From the NCBI GenBank assembly GCA_017854855.1, contig JAFMGZ010000005.1, positions 59,279-123,278 of the forward strand: a stretch of 64,000 nucleotides of DNA, given 5' to 3'. The position numbers and the translations under genes are program-made. Positions 57,581 through 63,916 of this stretch are shown piece by piece. Below the pieces are notes generated by a model that saw nothing but the letters and a program-made list of their open reading frames with translations, was not told where the DNA came from and did not search any database. Position 1 is the first letter of the stretch; every line of letters starts with the position of its first letter. The DNA is from Sulfitobacter sp. Lineage in GTDB: Bacteria; Pseudomonadota; Alphaproteobacteria; Rhodobacterales; Rhodobacteraceae.

Positions 57581-58327
57581 ATGAGATTGAACGGAAAAGC
57601 AGCAATCGTTACCGGCGGAGCATCGGGTTTTGGGGCCGGCATCGTCGCCAAGTTCGTGGCGGAAGGGGCAAAGGTGCTGATCGCTGACCTGAACCTTGAG
57701 ATGGCCGATGCGCTGGCCGCCGAACTGGGCGATACGGTCAAGACGATCCAGACCGACATCACGCAGGCCAACGCCGTGCAGGCCATGACGCAAGCGGCAA
57801 TCGCGCATTTCGGCAAGATCGACATCCTGGTGAACAACGCCGGGACAACCCACATGCCAGCCGCGATGGAAGACGTGTCGGAAGAGGATTTTGACAAGGT
57901 ATTTGCCGTCAACGCAAAGTCCATCTATCTGACTTCCAAAGCGATTGTGCCCCTGATGAAGGCGCAGAAATCGGGTGCAATCCTGAATATATCGTCCACC
58001 GCAGCGCTCAGCCCGCGCCCCCGGCTAAGTTGGTATAACGCGTCCAAAGGCTGGCTGAACACGGCGACGAAATCCATGGCTGTTGAACTGGCCCCGCAGG
58101 GTGTGCGGGTGAACGCGCTGAACCCGGTTGCGGGCGAGACGCCATTGCTCAAGATGTTCATGGGCGAGGATACCCCCGAGATGCGGGCGAAATTCCTGTC
58201 CACCATTCCGATTGGTCGTTTTTCCACACCTGAGGATATGGGCAATGCCGCCTGCTACCTGTGTTCGGACGAGGCCAGCATGGTCACGGGCGTCTGTATG
58301 GAAGTGGACGGCGGGCGCTGTATCTGA
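57581..58327 (+). CDS. Short-chain dehydrogenase/reductase
   Basis: VTGGASGFGAGIVAKF, NNAG, SWYNASKGWLN (YxxxK), C-terminal CMEVDGGRCI. Confidence 0.92.
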   Translation: MRLNGKAAIVTGGASGFGAGIVAKFVAEGAKVLIADLNLEMADALAAELGDTVKTIQTDITQANAVQAMTQAAIAHFGKIDILVNNAGTTHMPAAMEDVSEEDFDKVFAVNAKSIYLTSKAIVPLMKAQKSGAILNISSTAALSPRPRLSWYNASKGWLNTATKSMAVELAPQGVRVNALNPVAGETPLLKMFMGEDTPEMRAKFLSTIPIGRFSTPEDMGNAACYLCSDEASMVTGVCMEVDGGRCI

Positions 58328-58331
58328 GGAT

Positions 58332-58348
58332 CGTAAGGTTACCGTAAG
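58332..58348. promoter_or_regulatory. PmrA-box-like direct repeat CGTAAG-GTTAC-CGTAAG
   Basis: Exact hexamer repeat with 5-nt spacer; reverse strand CTTACG-N5-CTTACG compares with HTTAAK-N5-HTTAAK; 47 nt before eptA ATG. Confidence 0.6.
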
Positions 58349-58394
58349 CTTGGGGTGATCAATCGCGCTGAAACAACAGCGCAGAACATACCCA

Positions 58395-60059
58395 ATGACC
58401 ACAAAACCATTCGGCAGCCAGCGCTGCGCAGAAATGCGCAGCGCGCTGCATCTTTCGCCGATTGCTTTGAAATCCCTGACCATCGGTTTCATTTTCCTAA
58501 CCTATAACGCGACCTTCTGGTCCCATGCGGCTGAGATATTTTCCGGTCATCTCTTGTCGCTTGGGGGATTTGTGGCAGCAGTGTTTTTCCTGATGCTGGG
58601 GGCCTTCAGTTTTTTCGCTTTTCCCTATGTGGTGAAACCTTTCTTGGTCTTTATTGTCCTGCTCAGTTCCGTCACCTCCTATTACATGGACAATCTGGGG
58701 GTGATCATTGACCGTGATATGATCCAGAATGTGATGGTAACGACAGTCACCGAATCCAAGCATCTGATTACATTTGGTTTTGTGACCCATGTCCTGATCT
58801 ATGGGGTGCTGCCAGCGATCTTGATCCTATGTGTCACGATCAAGCCCCAAGGGCGGATCAGAATGGTCCTGACCCCCTTTGCTTCGGTCTTGCTCAGCTT
58901 TGGCCTTGCTGCGGGTTTTCTGATGACCGACCTCAAATCCTATGCGTCGATCCTGCGCGAACGCAAAGACCTGATGAGCAGCTTTCAACCCGGTGCGCCG
59001 CTGGTTGGTGCCATCCGATATGCGCGCATGATCTCAACCTCATCGCATGTTGCGGTCGCGGCGATTGGCGAGGATGCAGTCAAGGGACCTGCCTATGCAA
59101 GGCAGGACAAACCCGTGCTGACCATCGTCGTCGCCGGCGAGACGGCGCGGACGCAGAATTTCAGCCTGAATGGATACGAGATAGACACCAACCCCAGACT
59201 GGCCGAAATGCCCGTGATCAGTTTTCGCGATGTCAGCTCTTGCGGGACTGCGACGGCGGTTTCCTTGCCCTGCATGTTCTCGCGCTTTGGGCGTGAAGAA
59301 TACTCTTATGATAAAAGCATCTCGCATCAGAACGTGCTGGACGTGCTTACCCACGCTGGGGTGCATGTGGAATGGTGGGACAACAACACCGGCCACAAAG
59401 GGATAGCTGACCGGATACAGACGCAATCCTTTACCCACCGCAAGAACGATATTTTCTGTGCTGCTGGTGAATGTATGGACGGTATCTTTATGGAGGCCTT
59501 GCAGGAATATGCAGCGGGGATCACCCGGGATACGGTGCTGGTGCTGCACCAGATCGGCAGCCATGGGCCAACTTATTATCTGCGCTACCCTTCTGAATTT
59601 GAACGTTTCACACCGGCCTGTCGCACGGCCGAGTTCAAGAATTGCACGACACAAGAGATCGTGAATGCCTATGACAATACCATTGCCTATACGGATGAAA
59701 TCCTTGCGCAGACCATCGAAATGCTGACCGCCCAAAAGCATCTGACCACAGCGCTGTTATATGTGTCCGATCACGGGGAATCGCTGGGCGAGGGGGGGAT
59801 CTACCTGCATGGCGCGCCCTATTTCATGGCACCTGAGGATCAAACAAAGGTGCCGATGATCCTTTGGATGTCCAAAGGGTTTCAAGCCAGGTTCGGGCAC
59901 AACACAGATTGTCTGGCAGACAAGGCCGATGTTGCGCTGTCGCATGACAACCTGTTCCATTCCTTGTTGGGGATGCTTGATATAGAAACCGGCGAACGTG
60001 ACCCAGGATTGGATATTTTCGCATCATGCAGAGCGGCAGCACAGGAAGCCCAGGGATGA
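58395..60059 (+). CDS. eptA: Lipid A phosphoethanolamine transferase (EptA family)
   Basis: N-terminal TM helices; VVAGETARTQNFSLNGYEIDTNP, YVSDHGESLGEGGIYLHGAPYFMAPEDQ; alternative start ATG 58434 (MRSALHLSPIALKSL). Confidence 0.92.
   Translation: MTTKPFGSQRCAEMRSALHLSPIALKSLTIGFIFLTYNATFWSHAAEIFSGHLLSLGGFVAAVFFLMLGAFSFFAFPYVVKPFLVFIVLLSSVTSYYMDNLGVIIDRDMIQNVMVTTVTESKHLITFGFVTHVLIYGVLPAILILCVTIKPQGRIRMVLTPFASVLLSFGLAAGFLMTDLKSYASILRERKDLMSSFQPGAPLVGAIRYARMISTSSHVAVAAIGEDAVKGPAYARQDKPVLTIVVAGETARTQNFSLNGYEIDTNPRLAEMPVISFRDVSSCGTATAVSLPCMFSRFGREEYSYDKSISHQNVLDVLTHAGVHVEWWDNNTGHKGIADRIQTQSFTHRKNDIFCAAGECMDGIFMEALQEYAAGITRDTVLVLHQIGSHGPTYYLRYPSEFERFTPACRTAEFKNCTTQEIVNAYDNTIAYTDEILAQTIEMLTAQKHLTTALLYVSDHGESLGEGGIYLHGAPYFMAPEDQTKVPMILWMSKGFQARFGHNTDCLADKADVALSHDNLFHSLLGMLDIETGERDPGLDIFASCRAAAQEAQG
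58421..58444 (+). other. Perfect 10-bp hairpin with GAAA loop at eptA 5' end
   Basis: GCGCTGCGCA-GAAA-TGCGCAGCGC; overlaps alternative ATG at 58434. Confidence 0.7.
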
Positions 60060-60466
60060 ACACGCAAGAGCCCCCAATCTCAGTACCACGGTCGAAACCG
60101 GAACGTATCACCGGAATTGCCCATGTTTTTGCCGCAGCGGGCTATTCTATCGGGGGTTTGCGCAGGCTCTGGCAGGAGACGGCGTTCCGGCATATCATCT
60201 TGTTGCTGATATTCGGCTTTGGCGTCCTTGCCATCGCGGGGGCCGGATTTTTCGACTACTGTCTTTTGTTGATCCTGTTCTTCTGCCTTGTCGCTGTCGA
60301 AGCCCTGAATACAGCCATTGAATGTCTTGTTGACCATTTGGCCCCACAATGGGAGGAATTCGCCCGCGACGCCAAAGATCTGGGGTCGCTTGCAACCATG
60401 TGTCTGCTCTGTGCAAATGGTGTCTTCCTTGGTGCGGTTGTTGTCCGCTCCTTCGTTTTGTCGTGA
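60056..60466 (+). CDS. dgkA: Diacylglycerol kinase (DgkA family)
   Basis: [55 protein letters not shown] overlap with eptA. Confidence 0.9.
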
Positions 60467-60476
60467 AAGAAAAATT

Positions 60477-61169
60477 ATGAATATGCTCAAGATCGTGGCC
60501 GTTCCGATGCACAAGGAAGGGCGGAAATTCGTGGCAACCTTTGCCGTGATCACTTTGGTCCTAGCGTTGATTTGGGAACCTTTGTTCTGGATCGGCGTGG
60601 GGCTTACGATCTGGTGCTACTATTTCTTTCGCGATCCGGTGCGGGTTGTCCCACAGCAGCAGGGGCTGGTTCTGTCGCCTGCGGATGGTGTTGTGTCCTT
60701 GATCGAACAGGTGGTGCCGTCCCGGGACCTTGGGCTTGGCGATGATCCTTTGACGCGCGTGTCTGTCTTCATGAATGTATTCAACTGCCACGTGAACCGT
60801 GCGCCGATCGCCGGGCGTGTGATGCAAGTGGTCTATCACCACGGCAAGTTTCTGAATGCATCGCTGGACAAGGCAAGCGAGCATAACGAACGCAATAGTG
60901 TGACCATTGAAACCCCCCAAGGGGTGCGGATCGGTGTTGTACAGATTGCCGGTCTGGTGGCGCGCCGCATCGTTTGTTTCGTGCAGGAAGGCGACACTTT
61001 GGATATCGGGCACCGTTTTGGCCTGATCCGTTTTGGCAGCCGTCTGGACATCTACCTGCCCAAGGGGGTCACGCCGCTGGTGTCAGTGGGGCAAACGGCC
61101 GTTGCGGGTGAAACCGTGCTGGCCGATTTGGCGAATCCAGACCAGCAGCGCCCCGGTATAGCCGTATGA
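60477..61169 (+). CDS. psd: Phosphatidylserine decarboxylase (short form)
   Basis: [62 protein letters not shown] (GS autocleavage). Confidence 0.95.
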
Positions 61170-61933
61170 CCGCATCGCCCAAGATCAAGCTGCGCCATAT
61201 CGTACCCAGCATGGTGACGGTTTTTGCCCTCTGTGCCGGGATGACATCTGTGCGCATGAGCCTTGAAGGCAAGCTTGAGATCGGGCTTTATTTCATCTTG
61301 CTGGCCGTGTTCCTGGATGCAGCGGATGGCAAGCTGGCCCGGTTCCTCGACACCGCCAGCCCGTTCGGGGCTGAATTGGATACGCTTGCGGATTTCTTCA
61401 ACTTTGGCATCGCGCCGGGCGTGCTGTTGTTCAACACGCTTTATATCGGGACGGAGCATGCGAATTTGGGGTGGTTGGCCTCTTTGGTTCTGGCGGTCTG
61501 TTGTGCCTTGCGGTTGGCGCGGTTCAACCTGTCGGGCAAGACCAAGGATGTGACGCTGTCCAAGGATGCCTTTTTTGTCGGCGTCCCGGCCCCGGCGCTG
61601 GCCTGTCTTGCCTTGATGCCGGTCTTTATGCACCTGCACGGCTGGCAAAACACGGATTGGCCGGTCCTGCGGGCCATCTATATCATCGGTGTCGGGTTCC
61701 TTGCGGTCAGCACATTGCCGACCTTTTCGATCAAACATGCCACGATCAAGCGAAGCCAGCTGCCGATGGTCCTGATCGCCTCTGTGGTGCTGGTGGTCTG
61801 TCTGATGGTCTATCCCTGGCCCACTTTGATGGTGGCAAACTGCATCTATCTTGCCTCATTGCCGTTTTCCTACCTGTCACAGACGAAACAGACCAAGGCC
61901 CTTCGGAACAAAGATGCGCATTCTGCTCATTGA
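61166..61933 (+). CDS. pssA: CDP-diacylglycerol-serine O-phosphatidyltransferase
   Basis: [40 protein letters not shown] matches CDP-alcohol phosphotransferase motif. Confidence 0.95.
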
Positions 61934-62570
61934 AGACGAGGCGGCCCTTGCCGGGCCGATGATGGAACACCTTGAGGTGGATCATCACCTTGTCGAATGG
62001 TTCAGCACCCTGGACGAGGCCGAAAGCGCTGTGCGCACGTCGGACTATGATGTCGTGCTGCTGGACCTTCAATTGCCGGATGGGGATGGGCTTGGCTTTC
62101 TCAAATCCTTGCGGGACCGGCGGATCAATACACCGGTCATCATCCTGACCGCACGGGACAAGGTTTCTGATCGCATTGCTGGTCTGAACCTGGGTGCCGA
62201 TGACTATGTGATCAAGCCCTTTGATCTGGATGAGGTCAAGGCGCGCATCCATACGGTATGTCGGCGCAGCGCTGATCAAAGGGCCGAAACCATAATCATC
62301 GGTGACCTCAACATCTCTCTGGCCGATCATATCGTCTTGCAGGCGGGCCATCCCATCCGCCTGACTACCAAGGAGTGGCGGGTTCTGGAAACATTGGTGC
62401 GCCGGAAGTCCAAGATCGTGCTCAAGGAAAGCCTTGAAGCCGCGCTTTATGGCTTCGGCGAGGAGATCGAAAGCAATGCGCTGGAGGCCCATATCAGCAG
62501 GCTGAGGTCAAAACTGGGCAAAGACCTGATCATCACGCACCGTGGGCTGGGCTACGGGATTGCCGGATGA
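61914..62570 (+). CDS. OmpR-family response regulator
   Basis: [58 protein letters not shown]-terminal winged helix EIESNALEAHISRLRSKLG. Confidence 0.93.
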   Translation: MRILLIEDEAALAGPMMEHLEVDHHLVEWFSTLDEAESAVRTSDYDVVLLDLQLPDGDGLGFLKSLRDRRINTPVIILTARDKVSDRIAGLNLGADDYVIKPFDLDEVKARIHTVCRRSADQRAETIIIGDLNISLADHIVLQAGHPIRLTTKEWRVLETLVRRKSKIVLKESLEAALYGFGEEIESNALEAHISRLRSKLGKDLIITHRGLGYGIAG

Positions 62571-63916
62571 TCCCGCGCGGCGACAGCCTGCTGGGCCGGT
62601 TGGTCCGGTCTTTGATCCTTCCCGGGGTGCTGGCAATTTTCCTAGGCGCGCTGATTGTCTATGATCTGTTCAAGGAAGAATACGACGAGCTGCTTGATAT
62701 GGGCCTGACCAGCAAGGCGCATCTGCTGTTGCAGATTGCCGAAGGCTCTGGTGAGGATCCGAACATTTCTGACCTGTTGGGGTTCCAAAACGCGGCCCTT
62801 GCCCCCGAAGAACGGGCGATGTTCTGGTTCATGAATGGTGCCGGTCAGATCATAGGGCAATCGGCAATGGCGGGTGATCCGATCTTGCCCGGCGATGCGG
62901 CAGAGGGGATCAGAACGCTGGAGGACAAGCGTGTGGTCGTGCTGCGCTCCGCGTCCCGGCCTGGGCTAAGCGTGATCGTGGCGGAACCGATGCAGGAACG
63001 GAACGAGGCTGTGCTTGATGTCGTTCTTGGTGCGCTGGTCGGGTTTATTCTGTTGGGACTTCTGTTTTACCTGGTGGCCTACCTTGCGATTGCCAGGTCA
63101 TCGCGCATCATCGCAAAGCTGAGTGAGAATATCGCGCAAAAGAGTGAACAGGACCTCTCGCCGATCGACAGGCGGAATTCCTTTGCCGAGATCGAACCGG
63201 CAATTGATACATTGGACAAGCTGTTGGGACGGCTGGACACGGTCCTTGCGGCCGAACGCGCCTTTGCAACCAATGCGGCCCATGAATTGCGCACGCCGGT
63301 GGCGATTTCGCTGGCCCATGTCCAGCGCCTGAAATCAAAGCTGGCCGATCCGACACTCGCGCGCAGTGCCGCAGAAATCGAAGAGGGGCTGAAGCGGCTG
63401 GTCCGCCTGACCGAACGATTGCTGCAGATGTCGCGGGCCCAGTCCGGATTGGGGCTGAATGCGACGGCAACGGATATCAATCCGGTGGTCGCGCTGCTGC
63501 TTAGGGAACTTCGGCAACGCGAACCATCAAAAGAAAGATTGATCATCTTAGCGCCGGTTGGCCAGTGGTTCAGTCGAATAGACCCCGATGCCCTGGGGAT
63601 TATTCTGAACAACCTTTTTGACAATGCGTTCAAACATGCCTCGGGCGGGGGGGCGATATTTGTTGATGCGCACCAGCCGGGCCGTTTGACCGTTTCGAAT
63701 GATTGTGATGCGTTGACACAAACGGATCTGGACAAGATCAAGACGCGGTTTGTCCGCAAGGCAACCCTGTCTGACGGATACGGTCTGGGTCTGTCGATTG
63801 TTCAGGAGCTTTGCCGTCAATCGGGCTGCGTGTTCGAAGTGATCTCGCCGCAACCCGGCGCATCCCGAGGGTTCACAGCAATGCTGACCTTTCCGGGCGA
63901 CCCAGAGAAAGCGTAG
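62567..63916 (+). CDS. Two-component sensor histidine kinase
   Basis: Two TM segments; H-box ATNAAHELRTPVAISLAHVQRL, N-box LGIILNNLFDNAFKHA, GYGLGLSIVQELC. Confidence 0.93.
   Translation: MIPRGDSLLGRLVRSLILPGVLAIFLGALIVYDLFKEEYDELLDMGLTSKAHLLLQIAEGSGEDPNISDLLGFQNAALAPEERAMFWFMNGAGQIIGQSAMAGDPILPGDAAEGIRTLEDKRVVVLRSASRPGLSVIVAEPMQERNEAVLDVVLGALVGFILLGLLFYLVAYLAIARSSRIIAKLSENIAQKSEQDLSPIDRRNSFAEIEPAIDTLDKLLGRLDTVLAAERAFATNAAHELRTPVAISLAHVQRLKSKLADPTLARSAAEIEEGLKRLVRLTERLLQMSRAQSGLGLNATATDINPVVALLLRELRQREPSKERLIILAPVGQWFSRIDPDALGIILNNLFDNAFKHASGGGAIFVDAHQPGRLTVSNDCDALTQTDLDKIKTRFVRKATLSDGYGLGLSIVQELCRQSGCVFEVISPQPGASRGFTAMLTFPGDPEKA

Follow-up and report, generated by a model that had tools for sequence, protein, structure and literature searches.

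An operon that opens with a lipid A phosphoethanolamine transferase gene (eptA) and closes with genes for a response regulator and a sensor kinase raises the question of whether that regulator controls its own operon, and through which site in the DNA. In the window, by which we mean the whole 64,000-nucleotide stretch of Sulfitobacter sp. DNA analysed here, the gap between an SDR gene and eptA is 67 nt long (58328-58394) and houses the tandem repeat CGTAAGGTTACCGTAAG, that is CGTAAG-GTTAC-CGTAAG, which reads CTTACGGTAACCTTACG on the reverse strand (Table 1). An exact 6-nt direct repeat with an 11-nt periodicity had been claimed for this gap from a sequence-only reading, and it was confirmed on the forward strand. 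A pattern search of the 3.82-Mb genome returned it as the single copy of CGTAAG-N5-CGTAAG with 0 mismatches, and no second genomic match with fewer than 2 mismatches was found for the extended 20-mer CGTAAGSTTNNCGTAAGSTT. Upon shuffling of the gap, an exact 6-mer repeat of period 11 appeared in 0.9% of shuffles, rising to 4.4% when periods of 9-13 were allowed, and the whole window contains 22 such short exact repeats. Against base composition alone the single repeat is mildly unusual; it is because of its conservation that we judge it to lie far beyond chance.

Table 1. Features of the eptA promoter and operon in the window
Feature	Position	Strand	Remarks
SDR gene	57581-58327		Upstream neighbour of the gap
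Tandem repeat CGTAAGGTTACCGTAAG	58332-58348	+	Read in the window
Half-site 1, CGTAAGGTT	58332-58340	+	Core CGTAAG 58332-58337; footprint columns 0-8
Half-site 2, CGTAAGCTT	58343-58351	+	Core CGTAAG 58343-58348; footprint columns 11-19
Downstream element TGATCAA (TGRTSAA in relatives)	58356-58362	+	Conserved in the 22-locus alignment
eptA, lipid A phosphoethanolamine transferase	58395-60059	+	First gene; Pfam EptA_B_N, Sulfatase; NCBIfam P_eth_NH2_trans
dgkA-type diacylglycerol kinase	60056-60466	+	Pfam DAGK_prokar; 4-nt overlap with eptA
psd, phosphatidylserine decarboxylase	60477-61169	+	Pfam PS_Dcarbxylase; NCBIfam PRK05305
pssA, phosphatidylserine synthase	61166-61933	+	Pfam CDP-OH_P_transf; NCBIfam pssA
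OmpR-family response regulator, proposed binder	61914-62570	+	Pfam Response_reg, Trans_reg_C; recognition helix ESNALEAHISRLR
Sensor histidine kinase	62567-63916	+	Pfam HisKA, HATPase_c

The genes eptA-dgkA-psd-pssA-RR-HK all lie on one strand and neighbours overlap or stand 10 nt apart, so the six were read as one operon. Against their NCBIfam models eptA scored 565 bits (P_eth_NH2_trans, cut-off 500), psd 382 bits (PRK05305, cut-off 315) and pssA 96.7 bits, slightly under its cut-off of 107. PmrB and QseC were among the best NCBIfam models for the kinase, both under cut-off, and the kinase is presumed to be the partner of the operon regulator. EYDE directly after the first membrane segment of the kinase (N-terminus, 62567-62700) is invariant in 14 relatives and could be typical of the kinase family as a whole. 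The genome gave one match each for psd and pssA, both within the eptA operon (60477-61933), so that the same switch probably controls the phosphatidylethanolamine supply; in relatives including G016, G054 and G028 both genes are located outside the eptA operon.

To describe what is conserved in the promoter, 22 eptA loci, namely L097 and 21 others whose regulator is linked, were aligned on the box. The conserved unit is a 9-nt CGTAAGSTT occurring twice with an 11-bp period, the second copy lying one 11-bp turn downstream of the first. In each half-site 8 of 9 columns carried 1.37-1.90 bits, the exceptions being column 6 (0.81, G or C) and column 17 (0.88), while none of the 20 columns upstream of the box exceeded 0.35 bits. 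Further downstream, in helical phase with both half-sites, the T, G and T at columns 24, 25 and 27 of a TGRTSAA element were invariant in 22/22 loci; this element may be a degenerate third half-site or a promoter element. The 6-nt half-site described earlier was therefore correct as a core but too short, since the full conserved half-site has 9 nt and is joined by TGRTSAA. The box begins 59-64 nt ahead of the eptA start codon in 26/26 loci (63 nt in the window). Counting the window, the box was found upstream of eptA in 22/22 same-genus loci with an intact eptA, and it occurred at 4 eptA loci of other genera as well (EptA 63-68% identical). A check of orthologous loci, suggested at the outset, found the repeat in every related eptA locus with an orthologous regulator. 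The SDR neighbour had just 3 matches at other loci (26-34% identity, 0 adjacent); as this gene is not conserved there, the box has been kept with eptA and not brought by a flanking gene. A perfect inverted repeat between the box and the start codon (GCGCTG-AAACAA-CAGCGC, 58364-58381) was considered as a rival operator and rejected; it is present in some relatives, but its second arm is not generally conserved. The eptA promoter of G011 (L130 / L045) has three in-phase units, CGTCAGATAAC, CGTAAGGTTGG and CGTAAGGTAGA.

In E. coli K-12, the eptA-basR-basS operon carries CTTAAGGTTGGCTTAAT (CTTAAG-GTTGG-CTTAAT), identified as the PmrA box from the known consensus, on the coding strand, with its first base 63 nt upstream of the eptA start codon; the coding-strand box of the window stands upstream of eptA at that same distance. 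The sequence-only reading had placed the match to HTTAAK-N5-HTTAAK on the reverse strand with one mismatch per half-site. Such a match indeed exists (10/12), but flipping the strand was unnecessary because the coding strand fits equally well (10/12), and the reverse-strand reading, which offers no advantage, was dropped. Given the equal fit and the same geometry as in E. coli, the coding-strand reading is preferred. Two direct half-sites with a 5-nt spacer (11-bp period) occur in the window as an exact repeat, an arrangement that 26 aligned loci share, while each half-site departs from HTTAAK at one position.

We then asked what kind of regulator the operon encodes. Among NCBIfam models it ranked highest with PmrA (203.7 bits, under the cut-off of 330), followed by QseB (168.2 bits, likewise under cut-off), with PhoB lower at 147.7 bits, and its nearest solved structures were those of BasR/PmrA. 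A maximum-likelihood tree placed the eptA-linked regulators of Alphaproteobacteria in one clade with their paralogues (100/98) apart from BasR/PmrA; E. coli CpxR was far from the window regulator, and the grouping of PmrA, QseB and the alphaproteobacterial clade received joint support of just 80/72 with several long branches. In PmrA, N188, N196 and R210 contact the bases, and T187, V192 and H195 make hydrophobic contacts (PMC4660055). Two of these six residues, N188 and R210, are retained in the window regulator, and the others are changed to S187, A192, S195 and R196. The residue of PhoB at the PmrA N196 position, R201, has been reported to bond guanine (PMC3973317); the window regulator likewise has Arg at 196, which would fit the T-to-G change at half-site position 2. 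Judged by curated cut-off and tree, the regulator is an altered-specificity PmrA relative and not a PmrA orthologue. Since it scores under the PmrA cut-off and lies outside the PmrA branch, the site should be called PmrA-like, an operator whose specificity has changed, rather than a true PmrA box. The initial description as PmrA-box-like was largely right, then, but strict membership by half-site consensus, orthologous regulator and contact residues does not hold: the box is predicted to work like a PmrA box without being one in the strict sense.

If the regulator reads this box, its recognition helix and the half-site would be expected to vary together. Three helix types were found with three half-site types across Alphaproteobacteria. 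Regulators with an S187/A192/H193 helix, ESN(A/T)(L/I)EAH, go with GTAAG half-sites (22 loci A/A, 2 A/C); those with S187/V192/Y193, ESNT(I/V)EVY, go with TTCAG...GTCAG in 9/9 cases, including Brucellaceae and Rhizobiaceae eptA-RR-HK loci; and those with G187/V192/Y193, EGNAVEVY, go with GTAAG...GCAAG. The corresponding half-site forms are CGTAAGSTT for ESNALEAH, TGTCAGSTT for ESNTIEVY and CTTAAGGTT for EGNAVEVY. At most EGNAVEVY loci regulator and eptA are arranged divergently, and the site lies in the gap they share (L159, L160, L163, L165, L166). This covariation covers about three clades, within which related loci are not independent. Box scores were higher at loci with an adjacent regulator than at loci without one (Mann-Whitney p = 2.4e-12; p = 1.3e-6 with close relatives left out), the degenerate pattern used for scoring having been written after those clades were seen. 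No box was found at eptA-psd-pssA loci lacking a regulator (L168, L246, L248, L249, L253). A counter-case is L143, whose box is strongly diverged despite a similar helix. Direct repeats with a period of about 10-11 bp and winged-helix regulator domains occur in the same regulon, as in tandem operators of the OmpR/PhoB family. The co-variation of box, regulator and helix type supports the original proposal that the repeat is an operator for the OmpR-family regulator encoded at 61914-62570.

Within the genus, 62 genomes were surveyed, 22 of which have an intact eptA. All 22 have the box and all 22 have a regulator with the A192/H193 helix, which is the orthologue adjoining eptA in 18 and an unlinked relative (51-53% identity) in four (G005, G051, G020, G027). 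The unlinked regulator-kinase pairs of these four genomes (L193-L196, A192/H193) are related in the tree to the eptA-linked regulator of G193, and they are a possible replacement of the linked regulator. By contrast, the 48-49% matches in G042, G050, G059 and G011 are TctD-like paralogues with valine at 192. The box pattern matched 31 times in the genus, 23 times at eptA and 8 times elsewhere; since the reversed control gave 7 matches, the 8 are at background level, and the genomes other than the 22 showed box matches at that level only. In G053 (L138, L272) the box is intact although eptA is fragmented and both the regulator and pssA are cut short, so that the operon seems to be decaying. In another counter-case, G216 (L142), the box is kept and the orthologous regulator is absent. 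A search of the window genome for a wider regulon, with the extended motif and up to 3 mismatches, gave 3 places versus 2 for the reversed control. The second-best genomic site (C11:36669) was rejected, as it overlaps an ORF 3' end and is wrongly oriented for the next gene. It is about an even call whether this is a dedicated one-operon regulon, in which an altered-specificity PmrA-like regulator has brought psd and pssA, the sole phosphatidylethanolamine synthesis genes of the cell, under one autoregulated operator with eptA and dgkA, so that use and resynthesis of the donor lipid would answer to one switch, and in which the TAAG/TCAG operator code follows the helix across Alphaproteobacteria.

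We consider it very probable that the repeat serves the eptA-dgkA-psd-pssA-RR-HK operon as its operator, bound by the operon's own regulator. The adjacent kinase would phosphorylate the OmpR-family regulator, which would then bind as a head-to-tail dimer with one DNA-binding domain per CGTAAGSTT, as PmrA binds tandem half-sites (PMC4660055). Bound beside the -35 region or across it, the regulator would activate transcription. Autoregulation would follow from the operon structure, and with both regulator and kinase inside their own operon a positive feedback loop is expected. As for the products, EptA would add phosphoethanolamine to lipid A, using up phosphatidylethanolamine and freeing diacylglycerol; DgkA would rephosphorylate this by-product, and PssA and Psd would raise phosphatidylethanolamine synthesis and replace the donor. 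The enzymology of this donor cycle is established, and CdsA, encoded elsewhere, would complete it. In E. coli, psd is under envelope-stress control via sigmaE and CpxR (PMC8138132), a precedent for coupling phosphatidylethanolamine synthesis to envelope stress but not for one operon with eptA.

The sign of regulation is unreadable from sequence, and the box starts so near the start codon that it could overlap the promoter. The operon regulator might thus bind and repress, the kinase either relieving repression or shutting the operon down. We regard this as unlikely, because the box of E. coli eptA, which PmrA activates, has the same position, and because no strong -35 is apparent downstream of the box, as would be typical of regulator-activated promoters; nor could a clear -10 or start site be made out at the eptA promoter. 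It seems similarly unlikely that another regulator (PhoB, a CpxR-type protein or a TctD/QseB-like paralogue) binds the box, the operon regulator being a bystander or a second input. CpxR sites consist of GTAAA repeats, which the GTAAG-N6-GTAAG of the box resembles. E. coli psd is controlled by CpxR (PMC8138132), the half-sites of TctD-like paralogues (TTCAGG...GTCAGSTT, L197-L208) come close to that of the window, and G216 has the box without the orthologous regulator. A global regulator, however, would have many sites and one per genome was found; box presence within the genus follows the eptA operon and A192/H193 regulators exactly; and the paralogues read TCAG cores, whereas the eptA operon has TAAG. 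That the repeat arose by chance or for structural reasons and plays no part in regulation, an idea for which the shuffled-gap frequencies could speak, is hardly conceivable given its conservation, namely the 22-locus footprint with its flat upstream flank, the fixed eptA spacing and the tracking of regulator type.

Control by the operon's own regulator would extend PmrA-type eptA control beyond the enteric bacteria into marine and soil-dwelling Alphaproteobacteria, and it would tie lipid A modification to the cell's only phosphatidylethanolamine pathway in one operon. The variants of operator and recognition helix form a natural series usable to work out DNA reading by PmrA/QseB-type regulators. 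Literature searches on alphaproteobacterial eptA regulation, judged by titles and abstract openings, gave no obvious report of this operator.

Compared with known systems, the Rhodobacteraceae TctD/QseB-like regulators (L197-L208) share the broad regulator clade and 11-bp-period half-sites ending in AGSTT, but their loci have a TCAG core and paired divergent repeats and are not beside eptA. In their promoters, paired and oppositely oriented TTCAGG-N5-GTCAGSTT sites lie upstream of the regulator gene and are apparently shared with a divergent gene. The PhoB Pho box is likewise an OmpR-family direct repeat of 11-bp period, with a half-site xGT(C/A)Ax and an Arg at the R201 position (PMC3973317); its GTCAT core differs from the GTAAG of the window, and it serves phosphate genes rather than lipid A and phospholipid genes. 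The CpxR site of E. coli psd-mscM resembles the window in its GTAA-core direct repeat and in envelope-stress two-component control of psd (PMC8138132), whereas eptA and psd are controlled separately in E. coli and are combined in one operon with its own regulator in the window. The closest parallel is the PmrA box, taken from the eptA (pmrC) and pbgP promoters of E. coli, Salmonella and Klebsiella, with its tandem 6-nt half-sites. The E. coli box and that of the window agree in strand, 5-nt spacer, the GTT after half-site 1 and the 63-nt distance, and both eptA genes share an operon with their own regulator and kinase. By contrast, CGTAAG in the window replaces the T at position 2 of CTTAAG by G in each half-site, and the regulator, scoring under the cut-off, has R for N196, A for V192 and S for H195, while the window system has a 9-nt unit with TGRTSAA and an operon to which dgkA, psd and pssA are added.
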